From Chitinophaga sp. SYP-B3965 (GTDB lineage Bacteria > Bacteroidota > Bacteroidia > Chitinophagales > Chitinophagaceae): a DNA stretch of 64,000 nucleotides. Positions 36,780-44,917 of this stretch are shown one piece after another (within the stretch, counting starts at the first letter, position 1; every line of letters begins with the position of its first letter). Where the stretch lies: NCBI RefSeq assembly GCF_009647655.1, contig NZ_WJFD01000003.1, forward strand, positions 62,001-126,000. Direction: 5' to 3'. Made by a program: the position numbers and the translations under genes. The notes below the pieces were generated by a model. It saw only the letters and a list, made by a program, of their open reading frames with translations, ran no database searches and had not been told where the DNA came from.

Positions 36780-37964
36780 ATGGAAAAGAAGAACATTAAT
36801 CTTGGCATTTTCGGATTTGGCTGTGTTGGCCAGGGCCTCTATGAAGTACTGAACCGAACAAAAGGTATCAACGCAAGGATCAAAAAGATCTGTATTAAAG
36901 ATCCAAACAAACCCCGTCCGATAGACGCGAGCTATTTTACGACGGACCCTAATGAAATCCTCAACGATCCTACTATCGACGTGGTAGTAGAATTGATCAA
37001 CGATACGGAAGCTGCTTTTTCTATTGTAAGCACTGCACTGAAGAATGGTAAAGCGGTGGTTAGTGCCAGTAAACGCATGATCGCAGAGAACCTGCCTGCT
37101 CTCTATCAATTGCAGGTAGAGAACAAAGTACCGTTCCTCTACGAAGCATCCAGCTGTGCCAGTATTCCTATCATCCGGAACCTGGAAGAATACTATGATA
37201 ATGACCTGCTGAATGCAGTGGAAGGGATCTGTAATGGTTCTACCAATTACATCCTCACAAAAATATTTGAAGAGAACCTGAGCTTTGAGACGGCACTGCG
37301 CCAGGCTACGGACCTCGGTTTTGCTGAAACTGATCCAACGCTGGACATCGAAGGATATGATCCTAAATTTAAGATCGTGATCCTGTTGCTGCATGCATTC
37401 GGTACTTTCGTGAAACCGGAGAATGTATTCAACTTCGGGATCAGTCACCTCAATGATTTTGATATTCAGTTTGCCCGTCAGCGGAATTGTACGATTAAGC
37501 TGATAGGTACCTGTCGCAGACAGAATGGGCATGTGAATGCTTATGTATTGCCTCATCTCATTAAAGAACACAATCTGCTGTATGATGTGTATAATGAGTA
37601 CAACGGTATCCTGCTGGAAAGTGCTTTTACAGATAAGCAATTCTTTGTGGGTAAAGGGGCAGGGGGTACTGCTACGGGTAGTGCGGTATTGAGTGATATC
37701 TCAGCCTTATTGTACAATTACCGTTACGAGTATAAAAAGATCAAACAAGCCAACCAGCCTGCTTTCACTAATGATCTGCAATTGCAGGTGTATGTGCGGT
37801 ACAGCACACCGGATCAGGTGGATCTTACCGAGTTCTATAATATCTCGGAGAAGTATGAGTCGCCTACCTACCGTTATGTAGTGGGTACCATCAACCTGGA
37901 TAAATTAAAAGATGCGGTGTGGTTGCAGAATAAGGATGTGAACTTATTGGTGCTGGAACATTAA
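36780..37964 (+). CDS. hom: Homoserine dehydrogenase, monofunctional
   Basis: This 394-residue enzyme has an N-terminal Rossmann motif (LGIFGFGCVGQGLYEVL, about 8-24) and the homoserine dehydrogenase core with EASSCASIPIIRNLEEYY, GICNGSTNYILTKI and GFAETDPTLDIEGYD. The GKGAGGTATGSAVLSDI segment is also diagnostic. It reduces aspartate semialdehyde to homoserine. No aspartokinase domain is fused. Control by the upstream SAM riboswitch suggests that this copy serves methionine synthesis; other copies, for instance fused to aspartokinase for threonine, may exist elsewhere. Repeats and hairpins follow its stop. Confidence 0.92.
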   Translation: MEKKNINLGIFGFGCVGQGLYEVLNRTKGINARIKKICIKDPNKPRPIDASYFTTDPNEILNDPTIDVVVELINDTEAAFSIVSTALKNGKAVVSASKRMIAENLPALYQLQVENKVPFLYEASSCASIPIIRNLEEYYDNDLLNAVEGICNGSTNYILTKIFEENLSFETALRQATDLGFAETDPTLDIEGYDPKFKIVILLLHAFGTFVKPENVFNFGISHLNDFDIQFARQRNCTIKLIGTCRRQNGHVNAYVLPHLIKEHNLLYDVYNEYNGILLESAFTDKQFFVGKGAGGTATGSAVLSDISALLYNYRYEYKKIKQANQPAFTNDLQLQVYVRYSTPDQVDLTEFYNISEKYESPTYRYVVGTINLDKLKDAVWLQNKDVNLLVLEH

Positions 37965-38035
37965 TAAAAGAGACCCTGCCGCGCTACAAAGGGCGGAGGT
38001 TTTTTATTCTTTAAAGGAAGATTCTTTTTTATAGA

Positions 38036-38063
38036 AAAGGCTGTATCGATTGATGCAGCCTTT
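38036..38063 (+). terminator. Terminator-like hairpin, unit 1
   Basis: Arms 38036-38047 (aaaggctgtatc) and 38052-38063 (gatgcagccttt) pair over 12 bases with one wobble, followed by a T-rich tract. It lies about 72 bases after the hom stop and could end the methionine operon. Confidence 0.65.
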
Positions 38064-38225
38064 CTTTTTGCAAAGAGCCTGCCGCGCTGCAAAGGGCGGA
38101 GGTTTTCTCTTTTTGAGGGAGATTTCTTTTGGGTGTGAGGCTCTTTTCTTTTTTGAAGGATGAGGGTTTTCCGCGCTGCAAAGGGCGGTGTTGTTTATTT
38201 TTAAAGGAAGATTCTTTTTTATAGA

Positions 38226-38253
38226 AAAGGCTGTATCGATTGATACGGCCTTT
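38226..38253 (+). terminator. Terminator-like hairpin, unit 2
   Basis: The second copy of the hairpin, 190 bases later. Its right arm reads gatacggccttt: relative to unit 1 two bases differ, yet all 12 positions still pair, with the wobble moved from one position to another. A run of nine T follows. Confidence 0.65.
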
Positions 38254-38490
38254 TTTTTTGCAAAGAGCCTGCCGCGCTGCAAAGGGCGGAGGTTTTCTCT
38301 TTTTGAGGAAGATTTCTTTTGGGTGTGAGGCTCTTTTCTTTTTTGAAGGATGAGGGTTTTCCGCGCTGCAAAGGGCGGAGTTTTATACTTTTTAAAGGAA
38401 GATTTTTTTTGTAGAGAACCTGCCGTCCTGCAAAGGCCGGTGTTTTTTTTTATTTTTAGGCGAAGAGGTTTTATTAAATTATTTTATATA

Positions 38491-38527
38491 AAAAGCCTAC
38501 CGCCCTTTGCAGCGCGGCGGGCTTTTT
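38491..38527 (-). terminator. Terminator made from an inverted repeat copy
   Basis: The inverted 18-mer copy is enclosed by aaaagcc (38491-38497) and ggctttt (38520-38526), and its own ccgcc and ggcgg ends can pair too. It lies 35 bases after the stop of the minus-strand lipoprotein gene at 38562, so it probably ends that transcript. Confidence 0.6.
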
Positions 38528-38561
38528 ATTTTTTTACGGGAAGAAGTTTTATTAAAAATAA

Positions 38562-39248
38562 TTATTTCTTCGTATAACTGAAGGTTATAACCCTGTTACT
38601 CACGGAAGGATCGTTTATCAGTTGCTCTGATCTCACTTTTTGTTCTACCAGCAGATCCTTTTCGTTGAACTTATATTCATACGTATCGCGGGAATGTACC
38701 TCTCCGGCGAAGACTGTTTCTTGTTTAACAAGGTTATTAAAACTTAATAACTCAAAGGATAAGGGGGAGCATAGCCACATGCAATTATCCTTTAGCGCTA
38801 TTTTTTTATTGCCGTAGGTGTAATTCTTTGTGCTGCCCTGGGTCGTGTCTTCATTATATACGTTGAACGTTGTCATGCTTTTTACATTCTCATTCTCCCA
38901 GGTGAGTTTGTAAATGGTGGACTTCCATCTCACTTCACTTATTTTATGCTCAGCGTTATATATCACGTCGTAGTATGCTTCAGATTCGTTGATGCGGATA
39001 ATGTTGTTTCCGGTGTATTCAAATGCCCTCGTGACCACATCAGATTCCATGATCTTAGCCAGTTTGTTTTCTTCGAAAACAGGGTAGGCAACAAGTGTAT
39101 CCCGGCTTTCTACATCGATACGGGTGAGTTTGCTGAGGAGCCATTCTTCTGCGGGAGGATGCTCTCCTCCTGCCGGAGATGTATCATTCTTGTTGCAGGC
39201 AAATAATAAGAGTATAAAAGCGGAAATATTTAATAATGCTCTTTTCAT
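38562..39248 (-). CDS. Tandem lipoprotein paralogue 7 (shortened)
   Basis: A 228-residue lipoprotein with lipobox LFAC (Cys18) followed by NKND. It is the nearest relative of the next gene upstream (39300): shared text includes KIMESD, FEYTGNN, TWENENVKS, the DTTQGST/DTSQGST pair and the end VRSEQL. It is about 48 residues shorter; the loss is spread over several loops (for example after the DTL near residue 51 and around the INES region), which leaves the strand pattern intact. It is separated from the rest of the array by a terminator and so has its own transcript or depends on read-through. Function unknown. Confidence 0.85.
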   Translation of the reverse strand: MKRALLNISAFILLLFACNKNDTSPAGGEHPPAEEWLLSKLTRIDVESRDTLVAYPVFEENKLAKIMESDVVTRAFEYTGNNIIRINESEAYYDVIYNAEHKISEVRWKSTIYKLTWENENVKSMTTFNVYNEDTTQGSTKNYTYGNKKIALKDNCMWLCSPLSFELLSFNNLVKQETVFAGEVHSRDTYEYKFNEKDLLVEQKVRSEQLINDPSVSNRVITFSYTKK

Positions 39249-39263
39249 TTCTTTTGCTTTACA

Positions 39264-39295
39264 GAAAAAGGGCTGCCACTGTGTGTGGCAGCCCT
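39264..39295 (-). terminator. Terminator inside the lipoprotein array
   Basis: An 11-base perfect stem (agggctgccac at 39269-39279 with gtggcagccct at 39285-39295) is followed on the minus strand by a T run. It divides paralogue 6 from paralogue 7. Confidence 0.75.
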
Positions 39296-39299
39296 GGAC

Positions 39300-40130
39300 T
39301 TACTTCTTTGTATAGGTGAAAGTCACTATACTGTTACTTACGGAAGGCTGATCCATCAGTTGCTCTGATCTCACTTTCTGTTCCGTCAGCTGGTTCTTTT
39401 CATTAAACTTAAACTCAAAGGTATCCCTGGTGTACACTTCGCCGCTGTAAAGGGTTTCGTGTTTAGCCAGGTTATTGGCGCTTAAATATTCGAAAGAGGT
39501 TGGCGAACTCAGCCACATGTAATTATCCTTAAATAAGGCTTTCACAATGTTGGGCTGATCGTCGTACGTGAAGTTGTTGGTGCTGCCCTGGCTCGTGTCC
39601 GTACCAGCTACATTGAAAGTGGTCACGCTTTTCACATTCTCGTTTTCCCAGGTGACCTTGTAGATGGCAGCATAATCAGGAGCGGCAATTGACTTCCGTC
39701 TCAATTCGCTTATCTTATTCTGTGCATTGTATAACACTTCATAATACTCTTCAATCGTCCACTCCTGTGCCTGATCAAATCCATATGTGTTGATGCGGGT
39801 AACGTTGTTACCTGTATACTCAAATGAATTCCTGATAGTGGGTGTGGTCACTTCCAGGTCAGACTCCATGATCTTCGTCAACTTGCTTCCTTCAAAAACA
39901 GGATAAGAAGTGAAGCTGTAAGGCTGATCACCGTCTGCTCCGCTTTCTGTTAGTTCAGACAGAACAGATGACGTGTTGTACTTCAGGCTGGTGGTAACGG
40001 TATCCTGCCTTTCCACATCAATATTGGTGAATTTGGTAAGGATCCATTCTTCTGCCGGCGCTGCATCATCCTTTTTACAGGCAGACAGTAACAGTACAAA
40101 AGCTGCAATGCTTAATAATGTTCTTTTCAT
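39300..40130 (-). CDS. Tandem lipoprotein paralogue 6
   Basis: A 276-residue lipoprotein. The lipobox LSAC (Cys18) is followed by KKDDAAP, an acidic/basic patch like the export signal that sends Bacteroidota lipoproteins to the cell surface. The mature part is almost all beta-strand with repeated short Y/F-x-Y hairpins: KITWEN-like VTWENENVKS near 160, YTYDD, MWLSSPTSFEYLSANN, and the end VTFTYTKK. The pattern resembles YD-repeat-like or DUF4595-like lipoproteins, which I cannot confirm. Only eight bases separate it from paralogue 5. Confidence 0.88.
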   Translation of the reverse strand: MKRTLLSIAAFVLLLSACKKDDAAPAEEWILTKFTNIDVERQDTVTTSLKYNTSSVLSELTESGADGDQPYSFTSYPVFEGSKLTKIMESDLEVTTPTIRNSFEYTGNNVTRINTYGFDQAQEWTIEEYYEVLYNAQNKISELRRKSIAAPDYAAIYKVTWENENVKSVTTFNVAGTDTSQGSTNNFTYDDQPNIVKALFKDNYMWLSSPTSFEYLSANNLAKHETLYSGEVYTRDTFEFKFNEKNQLTEQKVRSEQLMDQPSVSNSIVTFTYTKK

Positions 40131-40138
40131 GGTACAGG

Positions 40139-40939
40139 TTATCTTGTGATATATTCAAGTTTTACTTTGTAGATGTCCGGAGATCCACTTTCAAATGTGT
40201 CTTCAGAATCTATCGTTTTCAGCAGATTACCTTCAAAAGTGTACACATCCGTAAAGGTGGAATACAGTTCACCATTCATGAACATTTCCTCTTTTACCAC
40301 GTTATTGGCACTCAGGTATTCAACGCTGGCTACATCACTTAACCATTGGTAATTTCCGAGGAGTTGCTGGAAGCCGGGTTTGTTATCATAGGTGTATTTC
40401 TTTACGCTGTTCAGTACATAATCCGCGCCACCTTCTTTCACGTATAGGCTGCAGACCTTCACATTGTTTCCTTCCCAGGTCAATACGGATTTCTTATTAT
40501 AACCGTTGTTCATTTCAAACAATTCAGCGAGCTTTCCGCCAGCATACACCAGGGAATCATAACGATATGTGTCCTCTATTCCATCTCCGTTCCTGTCTCC
40601 AAAATATTGCACCTTACTAACAACACCAGCTGTATATACAAAAGAACTGATTGTGTGCAATGCAGGCTGGTCAGGGTTCTTTTCGTAGATGGATACGATC
40701 TTTCCTCCTTCATAAACCGGGCCTTGTGCATAAGATTCCAGTATATCATTATTAATGTAGGAATAAGACAACTCTTTAAAGGTATTGTCTGCATTATAGG
40801 TGATGAAAGTGGTATCATTACCATCTGTGCCAACTTCGATAATGTGGCTCAGGTAGTAGGTTTCAGGTGAAGCGTCGTCTTTTTTACAGGCTGCAAAGAA
40901 GAGAGTGATGGCTGTTAAGCCCAACATTGTTTTTTTCAT
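40139..40939 (-). CDS. Tandem lipoprotein paralogue 5
   Basis: A 266-residue member of the array: lipobox FAAC (Cys18) then KKDDASP. Shared motifs are GPVYEGGKIVSI, DSLVYAGGKLAELF, LTWEGNNVKVCSLY, KYTYDNKPGFQQLLGNYQWL, EYLSANNVVKEE and the final KLEYITR. It is most similar to paralogue 4 just upstream, as expected for a recent local duplication; 27 bases separate them. A surface location is inferred from the signal. Role unknown. Confidence 0.88.
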   Translation of the reverse strand: MKKTMLGLTAITLFFAACKKDDASPETYYLSHIIEVGTDGNDTTFITYNADNTFKELSYSYINNDILESYAQGPVYEGGKIVSIYEKNPDQPALHTISSFVYTAGVVSKVQYFGDRNGDGIEDTYRYDSLVYAGGKLAELFEMNNGYNKKSVLTWEGNNVKVCSLYVKEGGADYVLNSVKKYTYDNKPGFQQLLGNYQWLSDVASVEYLSANNVVKEEMFMNGELYSTFTDVYTFEGNLLKTIDSEDTFESGSPDIYKVKLEYITR

Positions 40940-40966
40940 AGGATATTTGCTTAAGTAGTTTACCGT

Positions 40967-41794
40967 TTATTTTGTGATGTATTCAAACTTTATTTTGTAG
41001 GTTTCTGAACGTACAGGATCTGTGAATGCTTCTTCTGTATCTATCGTTTTCAGCAGGTTGCCTTCATAAGTATATGCATGGGTATAAGTGGAACCCAGCA
41101 CATCATTATTATTGAAGTATTCTTCTTTTGTGACATTATTGGCACTCAGGTATTCAAAGCTGGTCAGATCATCTAACCACAGGTATGATCCGATGAGATG
41201 CTGATATCCGGGCTTGTTATCATAGGTATATTTATTTACACTTTCCAGTATAAAATCATTGCCGGAATGTTTAAAGTAAAGCGAGCAGGTCTTCACATTA
41301 TTCCCTTCCCAGGTAAGCAGATATTTATTCTGATTATCAGGTTGATCCGGGTTCAGCGCCCATAATTCTGTTAATTTTCCTGCGACATATACCAGTGAAT
41401 CAAAAGCAGGGCCCACTTCATACTGTCCATCCTGGTTATTATCCCAATAATAGTTCACTTTTGTTACAAGATCACCTGTATAAACAAAGGATTTCGTGTA
41501 GTGACTAACAGGATTCAAACTGCTTCTTTGCTGCACAGCTATTATCTTTCCTCCTTCGTATACCGGTCCTGCCTCATAGAATTCCAACTGGCCATTGTTC
41601 ATGCCGGAAGAATATGTTTCTTTGAAAGTATTGTTTTCATTGTAGGAGATCAGTGTGGTATCATTACCATCTTCTCCCACTTGAATAAATTTGCTCAGGT
41701 AGTAAGTTCCAGGTGTTGTGTCGTCGTTGTCGTCTTTGTTACAAGCTGCAAAAAAGAGGGTCATGGCAGTTAAGCCCAACAGTGTTTTTCTCAT
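40967..41794 (-). CDS. Tandem lipoprotein paralogue 4
   Basis: A 275-residue lipoprotein with lipobox FAAC (Cys18) and NKDDNDD after it. The body follows the array pattern closely: GPVYEGGKIIAV, DSLVYVAGKLTELW, LTWEGNNVKTCSLYF, KYTYDNKPGYQHLIGSYLWL, EYLSANNVTKEE, and the end KFEYITK. It and paralogue 5 form a close pair. It starts seven bases after the stop of paralogue 3, consistent with one transcript. Confidence 0.88.
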   Translation of the reverse strand: MRKTLLGLTAMTLFFAACNKDDNDDTTPGTYYLSKFIQVGEDGNDTTLISYNENNTFKETYSSGMNNGQLEFYEAGPVYEGGKIIAVQQRSSLNPVSHYTKSFVYTGDLVTKVNYYWDNNQDGQYEVGPAFDSLVYVAGKLTELWALNPDQPDNQNKYLLTWEGNNVKTCSLYFKHSGNDFILESVNKYTYDNKPGYQHLIGSYLWLDDLTSFEYLSANNVTKEEYFNNNDVLGSTYTHAYTYEGNLLKTIDTEEAFTDPVRSETYKIKFEYITK

Positions 41795-41801
41795 AGGTTG
41801 T

Positions 41802-42623
41802 TTATCGTTTTGTGTATTCTAAAACAGTTGTATAATTTTTAGCAGATTCAAGATATACAGATTCTTCTCTCGTAGCGATGGATGTTAGCAGCCCTTCTCC
41901 GTTATATATGAATGTATTGGTCCTGCTGGTTTCCACGGTTCCTTCCGGTTGTCTTATCATGTCTGCTTTAGTTACGTTATTAGCACTCAGATAGGTGAAA
42001 TTTGTGATGTCCGCCAGCCAATAGTAGTTACCAGTCAACATCCGGTGGAATGCTGGTTTGGCATCATACGTGTAGTTAAACGTTTGGAACAATACATATT
42101 CAGTACCGGTTTGTTTTGAATAACATTCATAACTCTTCACATTATCTCCTTCCCAGGTGAGTTTATAGAATGTAGTGGAACCATTCTTGTAGTTCGCATA
42201 TAACTCAGCTAATTTTCCTCCGGCATATACCAATGAATCATGACTGTTGATCACCCATTTGGCCTGCTCACGATCATATACTTCCTGGTCAGCAATGGTT
42301 ACCAGGTTGCCGGTATACTGAATTGAAGTGATGGTATGGCGCTCAGGCATGGAATTGCTCCACATTTGGATACCGGTAATTTTATCGCCTTCGTAAACGG
42401 CGCCGAAAGCATTAAATGCCGGCGCATCGTTGTGTATATATGAAAAACGGGATTCTTTAAACGTATTGTCCGCATTGTATGAAATGAAGGTGGTATCATT
42501 TCTTGCCTCGTATACATCGATCAACCTGGTTAAATACCAGTTTTCAGCTGCCGGATCATCATCCTTTTTACAGGACGAAAAAAAGAGGGCAATGACTATT
42601 AAGCTAAATAGTGGCTTTCTCAT
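41802..42623 (-). CDS. Tandem lipoprotein paralogue 3
   Basis: A 273-residue lipoprotein: lipobox FSSC (Cys18) and KKDDDPA. The shared core motifs are present (FGAVYEGDKITGI, DSLVYAGGKLAELY, LTWEGDNVKSYECY, YTYDAKPAFHRMLTGNYYWL, TYLSANNVTKAD and the terminal VLEYTKR), while loops differ from those of paralogues 4 and 5. It lies 15 bases after paralogue 2 on the same strand. Function unknown. Confidence 0.88.
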   Translation of the reverse strand: MRKPLFSLIVIALFFSSCKKDDDPAAENWYLTRLIDVYEARNDTTFISYNADNTFKESRFSYIHNDAPAFNAFGAVYEGDKITGIQMWSNSMPERHTITSIQYTGNLVTIADQEVYDREQAKWVINSHDSLVYAGGKLAELYANYKNGSTTFYKLTWEGDNVKSYECYSKQTGTEYVLFQTFNYTYDAKPAFHRMLTGNYYWLADITNFTYLSANNVTKADMIRQPEGTVETSRTNTFIYNGEGLLTSIATREESVYLESAKNYTTVLEYTKR

Positions 42624-42638
42624 AGGGTAGGGTGTATT

Positions 42639-43463
42639 CTATTTTTTGATGTATTGCAAGTTTTCAGTGTACTCTTTGGTCAGGCTGTTAGGCAGGTCTT
42701 CTTCTTTTGTGGCGATCTTTTCCAGCAGGCCTTTTGCATCGTAGGTGTAGACCATTGTATTCCTTACGGCCAATACGTTGGAAGGCAGTAAAGTGGTTTC
42801 TTCTTTCAACAGGTTATTTTCACTCAGGTATTCCACATACCAGGGATTGGTGAGTATTTCGAAATTACCGGGAATGTTTTTCCAGAAATTAGCTTTATCA
42901 TCGTAGGTATAGTTGATGGTGGCTTCATGTACCATCGTACCTTCATTATTTCTGTGACGTTCTACTTTGGTGATGTTTCCGCCGGTCCATTGTAGTTTCA
43001 GGATGTGATCTATCTTGCCCTGCTGAATAACCACATATTCCTTCAACTTACCATCTGCATACACCAGGGAATCTGCTGCACTGGATGGAGAGCTGTCGTC
43101 ATTGTAGTAATCTATCCTGCTGAGCAGGCTGCCATTATATTGGAAGATACATTCCAGCCGGGGCGTGATAGTTGAATCAAGTGTTACCCGCATTTTTTCT
43201 ATCCTGCCATTTACATATTCTGGCACTTGAACCGTATAGATGGTGGTAACACCACTAGGGGCGGGATAGGGCATAATGGAGAGCACTTTACTTACTTTGT
43301 GTTCATTATCGTAGAAATAGCGCGTAGTATCTGTATTGCGGATCTTTGCGGACAGGAACCACTCGACCATGACATCGGGGGGATCCACTGCTGCATTATC
43401 TTTTTCCGAGCAGGACGCAAGCAGGCATATCATGGCAGAGATGCCAATCAGTTTTGTTTTCAT
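42639..43463 (-). CDS. Tandem lipoprotein paralogue 2
   Basis: A 274-residue lipoprotein read from the ATG at 43463 (MKTKLIGISAM), chosen because the signal peptide begins there; an in-frame start at 43505 would overlap paralogue 1 and place 14 polar residues ahead of it. Lipobox LASC (Cys17) is followed by SEKDN. The core motifs are more divergent (DSLVYADGKLKEY, LQWTGGNITKVERH, YTYDDKANFWKNIPGNFEIL, EYLSENNLLKEE, end LQYIKK) yet in the same order and spacing. Confidence 0.85.
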   Translation of the reverse strand: MKTKLIGISAMICLLASCSEKDNAAVDPPDVMVEWFLSAKIRNTDTTRYFYDNEHKVSKVLSIMPYPAPSGVTTIYTVQVPEYVNGRIEKMRVTLDSTITPRLECIFQYNGSLLSRIDYYNDDSSPSSAADSLVYADGKLKEYVVIQQGKIDHILKLQWTGGNITKVERHRNNEGTMVHEATINYTYDDKANFWKNIPGNFEILTNPWYVEYLSENNLLKEETTLLPSNVLAVRNTMVYTYDAKGLLEKIATKEEDLPNSLTKEYTENLQYIKK

Positions 43464-43482
43464 AGGATAATAGGTTCTTTTA

Positions 43483-44274
43483 CTAGTTAAATTTCGTGTA
43501 TTCAAAAACGGTATTAAAAGTCAGTGACTGATTATTATCAAGGTCTTCTGTTGTTTCAGTTGTTTTCACCACATTCTTTCCTTCCAGCACAAAGTCTTTC
43601 ACTGTTCTTGAAAACAAGATCTCTCCGGGAACCCTTGCCCTCTCCGCTTTGGCCAGCATCTTATCACTCAAAAGCGTAAAATCCCGGAACAGGTAGAGGA
43701 AAAGGAACTGGCCGCTGATGCGATGCTGTACTCCTTCTTCTGCCGCATACGTATAGGTGTTCACGTAAGCGGGTATGTCTGTTCCCTGGTCTACGTCAAA
43801 ACCTTCTTCTTTTATTATATTTTTCTCTTCCCAGGTGAATTTGTTCACCCTGCTGCGGATGCCTCCGCTGATCTCGTGGTATTCTGCCAGCCGGCCATTC
43901 TTATACACCAGGGAATCATAATCCAGTATCACCCATTGGTCCTGTAAGTTCCAGCCATACTGATTGATCCGCACGATGTTCTCTCCGCTGTATGTAAAAG
44001 ATCTAAAAGGGAGGCCCTTCACATATTCCATCAGGTACACGAATTGTTTGATCCGGCCGTTTTCGTATACTACTTTAAAGGAATCATTATTGGCTTCATT
44101 TACCTGTTTTATTGTTCTGTTGGAATTATAAAAGAAGTGAGTCGTATCTGTTCCCTTTATCATGCTGGAAACCAACCAATAATCTATTGGCGGAGCAGGC
44201 GGAGCGTCTTTTTTCTTGCAGGCAGACAGGGTTATTGTCAACACCGTTAAGCATCCAAGGGTTTTCATCAGCAT
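43483..44274 (-). CDS. Tandem lipoprotein paralogue 1 (first of the array)
   Basis: A 263-residue lipoprotein with lipobox LSAC (Cys19) and KKKDAPP. It is the most divergent member: DSLVYKNGRLAEYH and FTWEEKNIIKEEGF align with the array core, NTYTYAAEEGVQHRISGQFLFL replaces the YTYD block, and the protein ends VFEYTKFN. Two start codons are possible (44274 and 44268). An AT-rich stretch at 44275-44345 upstream is the likely promoter area of the array; I could not pick a confident -7 box. Confidence 0.85.
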   Translation of the reverse strand: MLMKTLGCLTVLTITLSACKKKDAPPAPPIDYWLVSSMIKGTDTTHFFYNSNRTIKQVNEANNDSFKVVYENGRIKQFVYLMEYVKGLPFRSFTYSGENIVRINQYGWNLQDQWVILDYDSLVYKNGRLAEYHEISGGIRSRVNKFTWEEKNIIKEEGFDVDQGTDIPAYVNTYTYAAEEGVQHRISGQFLFLYLFRDFTLLSDKMLAKAERARVPGEILFSRTVKDFVLEGKNVVKTTETTEDLDNNQSLTFNTVFEYTKFN

Positions 44275-44347: not shown

Positions 44348-44917
44348 TTATAATCTGGATAAGCGTTCCGCTACCTGGCTGATGGGAAGGCCCATCACGT
44401 TATAAAAGCAACCGTTTATCCGATCTATGCCCACAGCCCCTATCCATTCCTGGATGGCATAAGCGCCGGCTTTATCAAAAGGTTGATAATGATCTACATA
44501 GTAAACGATCTGTTCGGGGGTAAGGGGTTTGAAATGTACTTCTGTGGTTTGCGAAAAGGCATCTTCCGTTCCATTGAAACGGATCACGACTCCTGTGATC
44601 ACTTCGTGTATGCGTCCGCTTAAGCGGGAGAGTATATTAATGGCGTCCTGCCTGTCTGTCGGTTTGCCGATGATCTCTTTATCCAGTAAAACGATGGTAT
44701 CTGCAGCGATGATCACATCGTCCTTTCCAAAAGAGCTGCTGACAGCATTGGCTTTCTGGCGGGCAATATGTACCGGCACTTCTGCAATGGGCATTTCCGG
44801 CGGGAAGGTTTCTGCTGCTTCACTCACCATTACTTCAAAAGGAATACCGGCCTGCTCTAATAACTGCTTGCGGCGCGGAGATTGCGATGCCAGGATCACA
44901 CGTTTACCAGCGTACAT
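44348..44917 (-). CDS. maf: Maf/YhdE-family nucleotide pyrophosphatase
   Basis: A 189-residue Maf-like protein. The N-terminal loop motif ILASQSPRRKQLLEQAGIPFEV binds the nucleotide, the middle IIAADTIVLLDKEIIGKP carries the catalytic Asp, and GAYAIQEWIGAVGIDRINGCFYNVMGLP closes the domain. These enzymes hydrolyse non-canonical or m5U/dTTP-like nucleoside triphosphates and have been linked to division arrest. The start overlaps the stop of the prenyltransferase gene by one base. Confidence 0.92.
   Translation of the reverse strand: MYAGKRVILASQSPRRKQLLEQAGIPFEVMVSEAAETFPPEMPIAEVPVHIARQKANAVSSSFGKDDVIIAADTIVLLDKEIIGKPTDRQDAINILSRLSGRIHEVITGVVIRFNGTEDAFSQTTEVHFKPLTPEQIVYYVDHYQPFDKAGAYAIQEWIGAVGIDRINGCFYNVMGLPISQVAERLSRL

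Follow-up and report, generated by a model that had tools for sequence, protein, structure and literature searches.

Seven predicted YD-hairpin lipoproteins in a lineage-specific tandem array of Chitinophaga

In the genome of Chitinophaga sp. SYP-B3965, a run of seven lipoprotein genes occupies the minus strand, bordered by maf and by a homoserine dehydrogenase gene, at positions 38562-44274 of the stretch analysed here (the window: 64,000 nucleotides of contig NZ_WJFD01000003.1, assembly GCF_009647655.1). We read them as a lineage-specific tandem array of outer-membrane lipoproteins, likely non-enzymatic surface binding scaffolds, and give this reading, whose functional part we infer, about even odds (a probability near 0.5). 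Each lipoprotein would be a sheet that stands by itself, built from eight or nine degenerate YD-type beta hairpins, and distantly related to the DUF4595 'porin-like' lipoproteins of Bacteroidota and, further off, to the YD shells of Rhs, Tc, and teneurin proteins. One old copy of the clade would have multiplied to give the one to seven copies present today; a conserved aromatic ladder of the hairpins would hold the sheet together, the variable residues of each copy may bind different ligands or partner proteins, and duplication would widen the set of things bound. Surface binding is favored because the proteins would form a sheet of repeats with no obvious active site and the copies diverge under purifying selection. 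Binding lipoproteins commonly broaden their ligand range by gene duplication.

That the seven are tandem paralogous lipoproteins, as an earlier note on the window had proposed, is confirmed by seven intact open reading frames (ORFs) and by mutual matches far beyond chance. Counted with their stop codons, they run from gene 1 (43483-44274, 263 residues), which adjoins maf, through gene 2 (42639-43463, 274 residues), gene 3 (41802-42623, 273 residues), gene 4 (40967-41794, 275 residues), gene 5 (40139-40939, 266 residues), and gene 6 (39300-40130, 276 residues) to gene 7 (38562-39248, 228 residues), all as called from ORFs. For gene 2, the listed TTG start at 43505 would overlap gene 1 and the ATG at 43463 was used instead; its protein entered the Pfam and NCBIfam scans and the seven-protein alignment without the first methionine. 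With gene 4 as the query, the other six were found in their own genome at E values from 9e-7 to 5e-93, with no further match at E ≤ 10, and a profile of all seven recovered every one of them at E ≤ 1.1e-60, along with a split N-terminal piece of gene 7 and 17 further weak matches (E ≥ 6e-4), many of which fell on signal peptides. Similarity is indeed highest between direct neighbors (66% identity for genes 6 and 7, 59% for genes 4 and 5, 41-43% for gene 3 against genes 4 and 5, and 27-34% for the remaining pairs), which supports stepwise duplication for the pairs 4/5 and 6/7. The claim that all seven keep a common set of core motifs holds only in part: 15 residues of the alignment are invariant (C, D, D-T, Y, E, W, N, T-Y, L, L-S, K, and one C-terminal Y), but DSLVY is absent from genes 6 and 7, gene 1 has YTYA, gene 7 has YTYG, and gene 2 has LQWTGGNITK.

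The structural comparisons described here are of predicted models, made with AlphaFold2 on an alignment of the seven window sequences. For the mature part of gene 3, the model is an all-beta meander in which 16 strands are accompanied by three short helices (mean predicted local distance difference test, or pLDDT, 88.9; predicted template modeling score, or pTM, 0.82), and for gene 7 it is a meander of 14 strands rather than 16 (pLDDT 85.6), the gene 7 protein being shorter (228 residues) because it has about one hairpin fewer. In a Foldseek search of the PDB, gene 3 found 4ghb first (BACUNI_01323; E 3.6e-8, template modeling (TM) score 0.59) and 3tzg next (BVU_2266; E 1.1e-6), both of them Bacteroides proteins described as 'porin-like', with matches along almost the full mature length. 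Among the 22 chains at E ≤ 0.001, the 18 besides these two entries were 16 Rhs, Tc, or teneurin chains (E 1.5e-5 to 9e-4, with low TM-scores of 0.08-0.29) and two OspA chains, likewise of low TM-score. VIA-align gave the same order for gene 3, with Z-scores of 14.8 (root-mean-square deviation (rmsd) 3.6 over 212 aligned residues) and 14.2 for 4ghb and 3tzg and 10.0 for the next entry, the porin OmpU; for gene 7 alone, 3tzg reached 11.4, 4ghb 10.8, and the next entry 8.4. Identity between the window proteins and the two solved structures is 8-13%. The predicted fold is thus the 'porin-like' YD-hairpin sheet, and the idea that these are proteins of unknown fold is not borne out, given that the model matches 4ghb and 3tzg before anything else and that YD-type repeats can be read in the sequences. 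A search of the viral structures in BFVD returned a phage protein named for a lipoprotein attachment site at the top (E 1e-8, probability 1.00, TM-score 0.35, 10.6 Å rmsd), followed by many MORN-repeat proteins, and we judged all of these matches to reflect the common likeness of beta meanders.

The repeats emerge from an alignment of 48 members of the wider family, in which aromatic residues at model positions 31, 59, 85, 115, 139, 168, 222, and 252 are among the best conserved positions, spaced 24-30 residues apart with one double step. When a position-specific scoring matrix was built with one repeat left out, the omitted repeat took a median rank of 1 among about 184 positions for seven of the eight anchors and of 2 for the eighth, with a mean fractional rank of 0.012 versus 0.42-0.57 for six sets of random anchors. 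A stricter test, limited to aromatic positions and leaving the anchor residue unscored, gave a mean of 0.037 (n 381, chance 0.5), the last anchor being the weakest (rank 1 in 9 of 43). A ninth repeat near position 193 was scorable in 12 members only and ranked first in six of them. Anchors shifted by 5 to 20 residues had mean ranks of 0.021, 0.029, 0.116, 0.288, 0.287, and 0.352, all below 0.5, as expected of overlapping windows in a periodic sequence; the real control is the set of random anchors. The repeat consensus of the 48 members, TDTTSYTYNSKGNVKKITY, follows the pattern of the YD repeat. Each protein thus carries eight to nine degenerate YD-type repeats. The Rhs/YD shells (PF05593; Rhs effectors, Tc B-C, and teneurins) share with them a repeat of about 25-30 residues of the form Y-x-Y-(N/D)-x-x-G-x-(V/L), the Foldseek matches, and the RHS_repeat matches found in the wider family. 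The window proteins differ in having eight or nine repeats only, in lacking an RHS core signature and a toxin tail, and in being lipid anchored; their TM-scores against the large shells are low, and nothing here implies a closed cocoon.

The nearest named family is DUF4595 (PF15283), of which the array family appears to be a distant relative rather than a member. Pfam models at E ≤ 0.01 matched RHS_repeat in 8 of the 48 members (best 9.4e-7) and DUF4595 in 2 of 48 (best 4e-4); among NCBIfam models, YD_repeat_2x was matched in 6 of 48 and the lipoprotein model PG1828_fam_lipo six times. Beyond these matches, Pfam, NCBIfam, PHROGs, and PADLOC gave only scattered single matches across the 48. DUF4595 was not among the Pfam matches of any of the seven window proteins at E ≤ 10, and the sole RHS_repeat match among them was in gene 2 (14.1 bits against a cut-off of 22). 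Run over the genomes, the PF15283 model scored the second array gene of genome G032 highest within the family, at 21 bits against a cut-off of 34.2, and at E ≤ 1e-9 it was found in 1 of 247 genomes sampled from the class. The profile of the 48 members aligned end to end with a DUF4595 protein, the 263-residue lipoprotein L110 (35.9 bits), over 233 columns (probability 96.4, E 1.1e-9), compared with probabilities of 0.1 for a housekeeping control and 12.8 for an Rhs protein. This wide profile aligns with L110, but a profile of the seven misses it and scores fall below the cut-off, and we therefore class the family as related to DUF4595 but outside it; low identity to the solved 'porin-like' proteins is a further difference. 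From their shared 'porin-like' description, 4ghb and 3tzg are presumably DUF4595 proteins, and the antiparallel beta meander of that family would then recur in the models of genes 3 and 7, provided that these two structures stand for the family fold. Two DUF4595 proteins used as sequence queries did not find 4ghb or 3tzg, and a profile search of contigs yielded nothing beyond 24-50-residue matches around the signal peptide. Literature searches by locus name and PDB code for 4ghb and 3tzg listed no title that deals with these proteins, and searches on immunity by YD-repeat lipoproteins or on tandem lipoprotein paralogs of Chitinophaga listed none that deals with this family.

Only one clade of the genus carries the array. 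The site was compared in 39 Chitinophaga genomes, and whole-genome censuses of the family and of TssC covered the first 36 of them. Both border genes are present in 39 of 39 genomes: maf (a Maf family nucleotide pyrophosphatase, 44348-44917, minus strand), which lies upstream of gene 1 at a distance of 73 bases, and the homoserine dehydrogenase gene (36780-37964, plus strand, convergent to the array). The two are oriented toward each other in 37 genomes and in the same direction in G015 and G164. Eight genomes have an array: seven genes in this genome (G000), four in G006, three in G024 (one on the opposite strand), two each in G003, G031, and G032, two plus a fragment of a family gene in G035, and one in G012. 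In the other 31, whole-genome searches gave no family match at the site, and the borders are separated by 62-257 bases in 21 genomes, by 532-1048 bases in four, and by 11-16 kb of other genes in six. In a midpoint-rooted tree of the two border proteins, a branch supported at 100/99 separates the eight array genomes from the rest, and array presence requires a single change versus 7.4 in shuffles. With the root so placed, gain by this clade, rather than loss by all others, is the probable course. In the lipoprotein trees, the second of which excludes three divergent array genes (from G006, G024, and G035), gene 1 groups (99/96 and 97/95) with copies from G003, G032, G012, G031, G024, G006, and G035, whereas two starred groups, one of genes 3-5 and one of genes 6-7, contain sequences of this genome alone. 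Comparison of the genomes thus shows one old copy common to the clade, with others added later but not recently. The earlier note had set a housekeeping fold with fixed copy number in all relatives as one outcome that would speak against it; this outcome did not occur, as copy number at the site varies strongly among related species, from 0 to 7. Counting matches anywhere, including the array, the family is found in 31 of 36 genus genomes at E ≤ 1e-3 and, in the family-wide sample, in at least 26 of 195 genomes at E ≤ 1e-5, a lower bound set by scoring at most 13 candidates per genome.

Divergence between the copies speaks against rapid duplication, which had been claimed for the array. By the Nei-Gojobori method (NG86), synonymous divergence (dS) is 0.75 for genes 4 and 5 and 1.22 for genes 6 and 7, with ratios of non-synonymous to synonymous change (dN/dS) of 0.41 and 0.16; the YN00 method gives ratios of 0.35 and 0.27. 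These are the only two pairs close enough to measure, the others being near saturation; in this comparison each protein was made to start with methionine, and gene 2 was taken from one codon downstream of its ATG. With dS of about 0.75-1.2 and dN/dS well below 1, the closest pairs are under purifying selection and their duplications are not recent. A scan of both pairs for positive selection, over whole genes and in blocks of 40 codons, found no block with dN above dS, the highest ratios being about 0.7.

Surface location is suggested for some of the seven. Inspection of the alignment finds a lipobox cysteine after the signal peptide in all seven, the lipoboxes ending, from gene 7 to gene 1, in FAC, SAC, AAC, AAC, SSC, ASC, and SAC. 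The optimal surface-export signal of Capnocytophaga is reported as C-X-K-(D/E)2 (PMC5080379), a rule that may not be the signal of this genus. It occurs in 4 of the 7 window proteins (genes 3-6), in 7 of 31 other family lipoproteins in genus regions, and in 0 of 9 non-family lipoproteins; a looser rule of at least two acidic residues at +2 to +6 gives 5 of 7, 18 of 31, and 2 of 9. Genes 3-6 at least are therefore probably carried to the cell surface, and the proposal that most of the seven bear a KKDD-type export signal stands for these four.

Several findings weigh against the favored reading. Genes 1, 2, and 7 lack the optimal export signal, so the proposals of that signal and of a surface location do not extend to them, and the background for the signal consists of only nine non-family lipoprotein-like ORFs chosen by a home-made lipobox rule. 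Elsewhere in the genus, a starred group of 16 relatives keeps the family signature with no lipid cysteine; lipid anchoring is therefore not a property of the whole family, part of which is predicted to be secreted or periplasmic. No Pfam or NCBIfam model reaches its cut-off in any of the seven window proteins, and the seven-member profile does not find L110 (probability 0.9, E 0.064). Sequence searches of the PDB place 4r03 (DUF3836) first at E 0.027 and reach 4ghb weakly, at E 0.072 (E 0.39 with the narrow seven-member profile). No hypervariable region or loop stands out in the 48-member alignment, because conservation differs little among strands (mean entropy 2.60), helices (2.79), and other positions (2.74). 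Finally, it is the predicted fold and the duplication, and these two alone, that point to binding. The relatives without a lipid cysteine (L044, L046-L048, L050-L060, and L062) all lie outside the array; their signal peptides end in AFR, AFK, or similar, and their neighbors differ among subgroups.

The most specific rival is an orphan immunity array, in which each lipoprotein would block a contact-delivered or neighbor-secreted toxin, such as a type VI secretion system (T6SS) effector or a pore former, and copies would accrue against different toxins; we consider it unlikely, though it has one published precedent. Bti1 of Bacteroides fragilis (BF9343_1936), the immunity partner of the T6SS effector Bte1, is reported with a DUF4595 domain (PMC11854122, PMC7604300), and its counterpart in strain BOB25, almost identical in sequence, is described as a lipoprotein (PMC11854122). 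The reported target of Bte1 is a periplasmic chaperone complex (PMC12718326); as Bte1 acts in the periplasm, such immunity would not require surface display. BcdI, a surface lipoprotein of B. fragilis, is reported to block a pore-forming toxin (PMC11169675), and orphan immunity arrays of variable content, the acquired interbacterial defense (AID) and recombinase-associated AID (rAID) arrays, are described in Bacteroidales (PMC12247911). The likeness ends there: Bti1 is paired with its effector in a T6SS locus, whereas here no effector was seen and no TssC matched in the genome, and, unlike AID and rAID arrays, the window array belongs to one clade and showed no recombinase among the six flanking genes tested, no toxin homolog, and no T6SS link. 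The Bacteroidota-type T6SS (TssC, PF17541) is patchy in the genus, occurring in 25 of 36 genomes, some with two copies. TssC is missing from 6 of 8 array genomes versus 5 of 28 others (Fisher p 0.005, 36 genus genomes), which would favor an orphan array, but this contrast is nominal and we set it aside, because the array is a single clade and thus one event, giving one independent pair. Where a family member and TssC share a contig, the nearest distance is about 82 kb, to a weak match, and otherwise exceeds 400 kb. For family members elsewhere, 40 regions were drawn from the best matches, 39 with a recognized member and 50 member ORFs as called by script; 34 same-strand neighbors lay within 300 bp of a member, and no recognizable toxin was present among the 25 listed of their 32 Pfam families, a survey that would miss effectors without a Pfam family. 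Purifying selection also dominates in the two measurable pairs. Of the receptor, decoy, or immunity roles that the earlier note had raised, immunity is thus possible by analogy to Bti1, but no toxin appears among those 25 listed families and TssC lies at least about 82 kb away. In G011, a family member (L125) stands directly before, and slightly overlaps, a 1370-residue SprB-repeat protein that carries a type IX secretion tail, an arrangement reminiscent of an adhesin operon. An RHS protein near members in the same genome (L124) was considered and rejected: its gene has the opposite orientation, and two 311-residue ORFs for leucine-rich repeat proteins lie in between.

Two further readings seem improbable to a similar degree. 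The first is capture of nutrients or polymers, with the lipoproteins retaining nutrients, for instance carbohydrates, on behalf of an outer-membrane transporter in the manner of SusE/F-type or BtuG-type proteins. Surface lipoproteins of Bacteroidota frequently bind nutrients for outer-membrane transporters, and duplicated copies could differ in ligand, but the six flanking genes scanned include no TonB-dependent receptor, SusD, or hydrolase and are housekeeping genes. The second is redundant expansion at a permissive site, in which the copies would share a weak function, for example in envelope structure, and would not diversify in ligand. The site itself fits this, with closely spaced borders in 21 of 39 genomes yet 11-16 kb of other genes in six (two of them with non-facing borders), as do copy identities down to 27%, the position of gene 7 behind a terminator-like hairpin, and the family-gene fragment in G035. 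The seven intact frames and the dN well below dS in the two measurable pairs speak against redundant expansion, because a neutral array would decay. More doubtful still is a surface array of miniature YD shells acting as an orphan immunity or decoy bank, in which each lipoprotein would capture an incoming toxin, possibly of Rhs type, by adding its own hairpin sheet to the open edge of the shell, in a clade mostly without its own T6SS. A polymorphic Rhs toxin, with an RHS core and a C-terminal toxin domain, does not fit: the proteins are 228-276 residues long, and none of the seven matches the RHS core (PF03527).

At the level of transcription, the intergenic gaps from gene 1 to gene 7 are 19, 15, 7, 27, 8, and 51 bases. 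Because the gaps up to gene 6 are only 7-27 bases, genes 1-6 are probably transcribed together, perhaps as an extension of the maf operon. The 51-base gap ahead of gene 7 contains a hairpin resembling an intrinsic terminator (39269-39295, minus strand), a pattern match of 11 pairs, eight of them G-C, followed by a T run. A promoter scan gave 21 sites versus 20.8 expected by chance, and we therefore claim no promoter. The array is flanked by ordinary housekeeping genes, the Pfam families of the six flanking genes being Cys_Met_Meta_PP and Homoserine_dh on one side and Maf, UbiA, a KdsC-type phosphatase, and DUF2520 on the other. G+C content is 0.39-0.45 within the array and 0.43-0.50 in the flanks, a difference too small to decide on horizontal import. 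The maf/homoserine dehydrogenase site looks like a tolerated insertion site: in G007, G017, G022, and G009 (L101, L103, L104, and L105), it holds unrelated blocks of 14-16 kb, in which the single genes scanned include an AcrB-family transporter (G007), a glycosyltransferase (G009), and a TonB receptor with a SusD protein (G022, which G017 resembles by its ORF beginnings). The convergent intergenic region past gene 7 (37965-38561) contains seven copies of a 53-nucleotide repeat with the core CCGCGCTGCAAAGGGCGG, as well as a 190-nucleotide tandem duplication (95%). With one mismatch at most, 127 copies of the core are present across the genome of 7.14 Mb, versus 0 for a reversed control, and the repeat is an element like the repetitive extragenic palindromic (REP) type.

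As an event, the array is of an ordinary kind, a lineage-specific tandem expansion, and its fold is a known one. The analysis adds three things: the predicted fold is built of YD repeats; only one clade has the array, at a fixed site where copy number ranges from 0 to 7; and the terms 'rapid' and 'unknown fold' are corrected. DUF4595, the nearest named family, has almost no known function; the array suggests that its fold is a chain of YD hairpins, which would tie this fold to the Rhs and teneurin shell group, and the close relatives offer, at one fixed site, a natural copy series from 0 to 7 in which the role of copy number may be probed.

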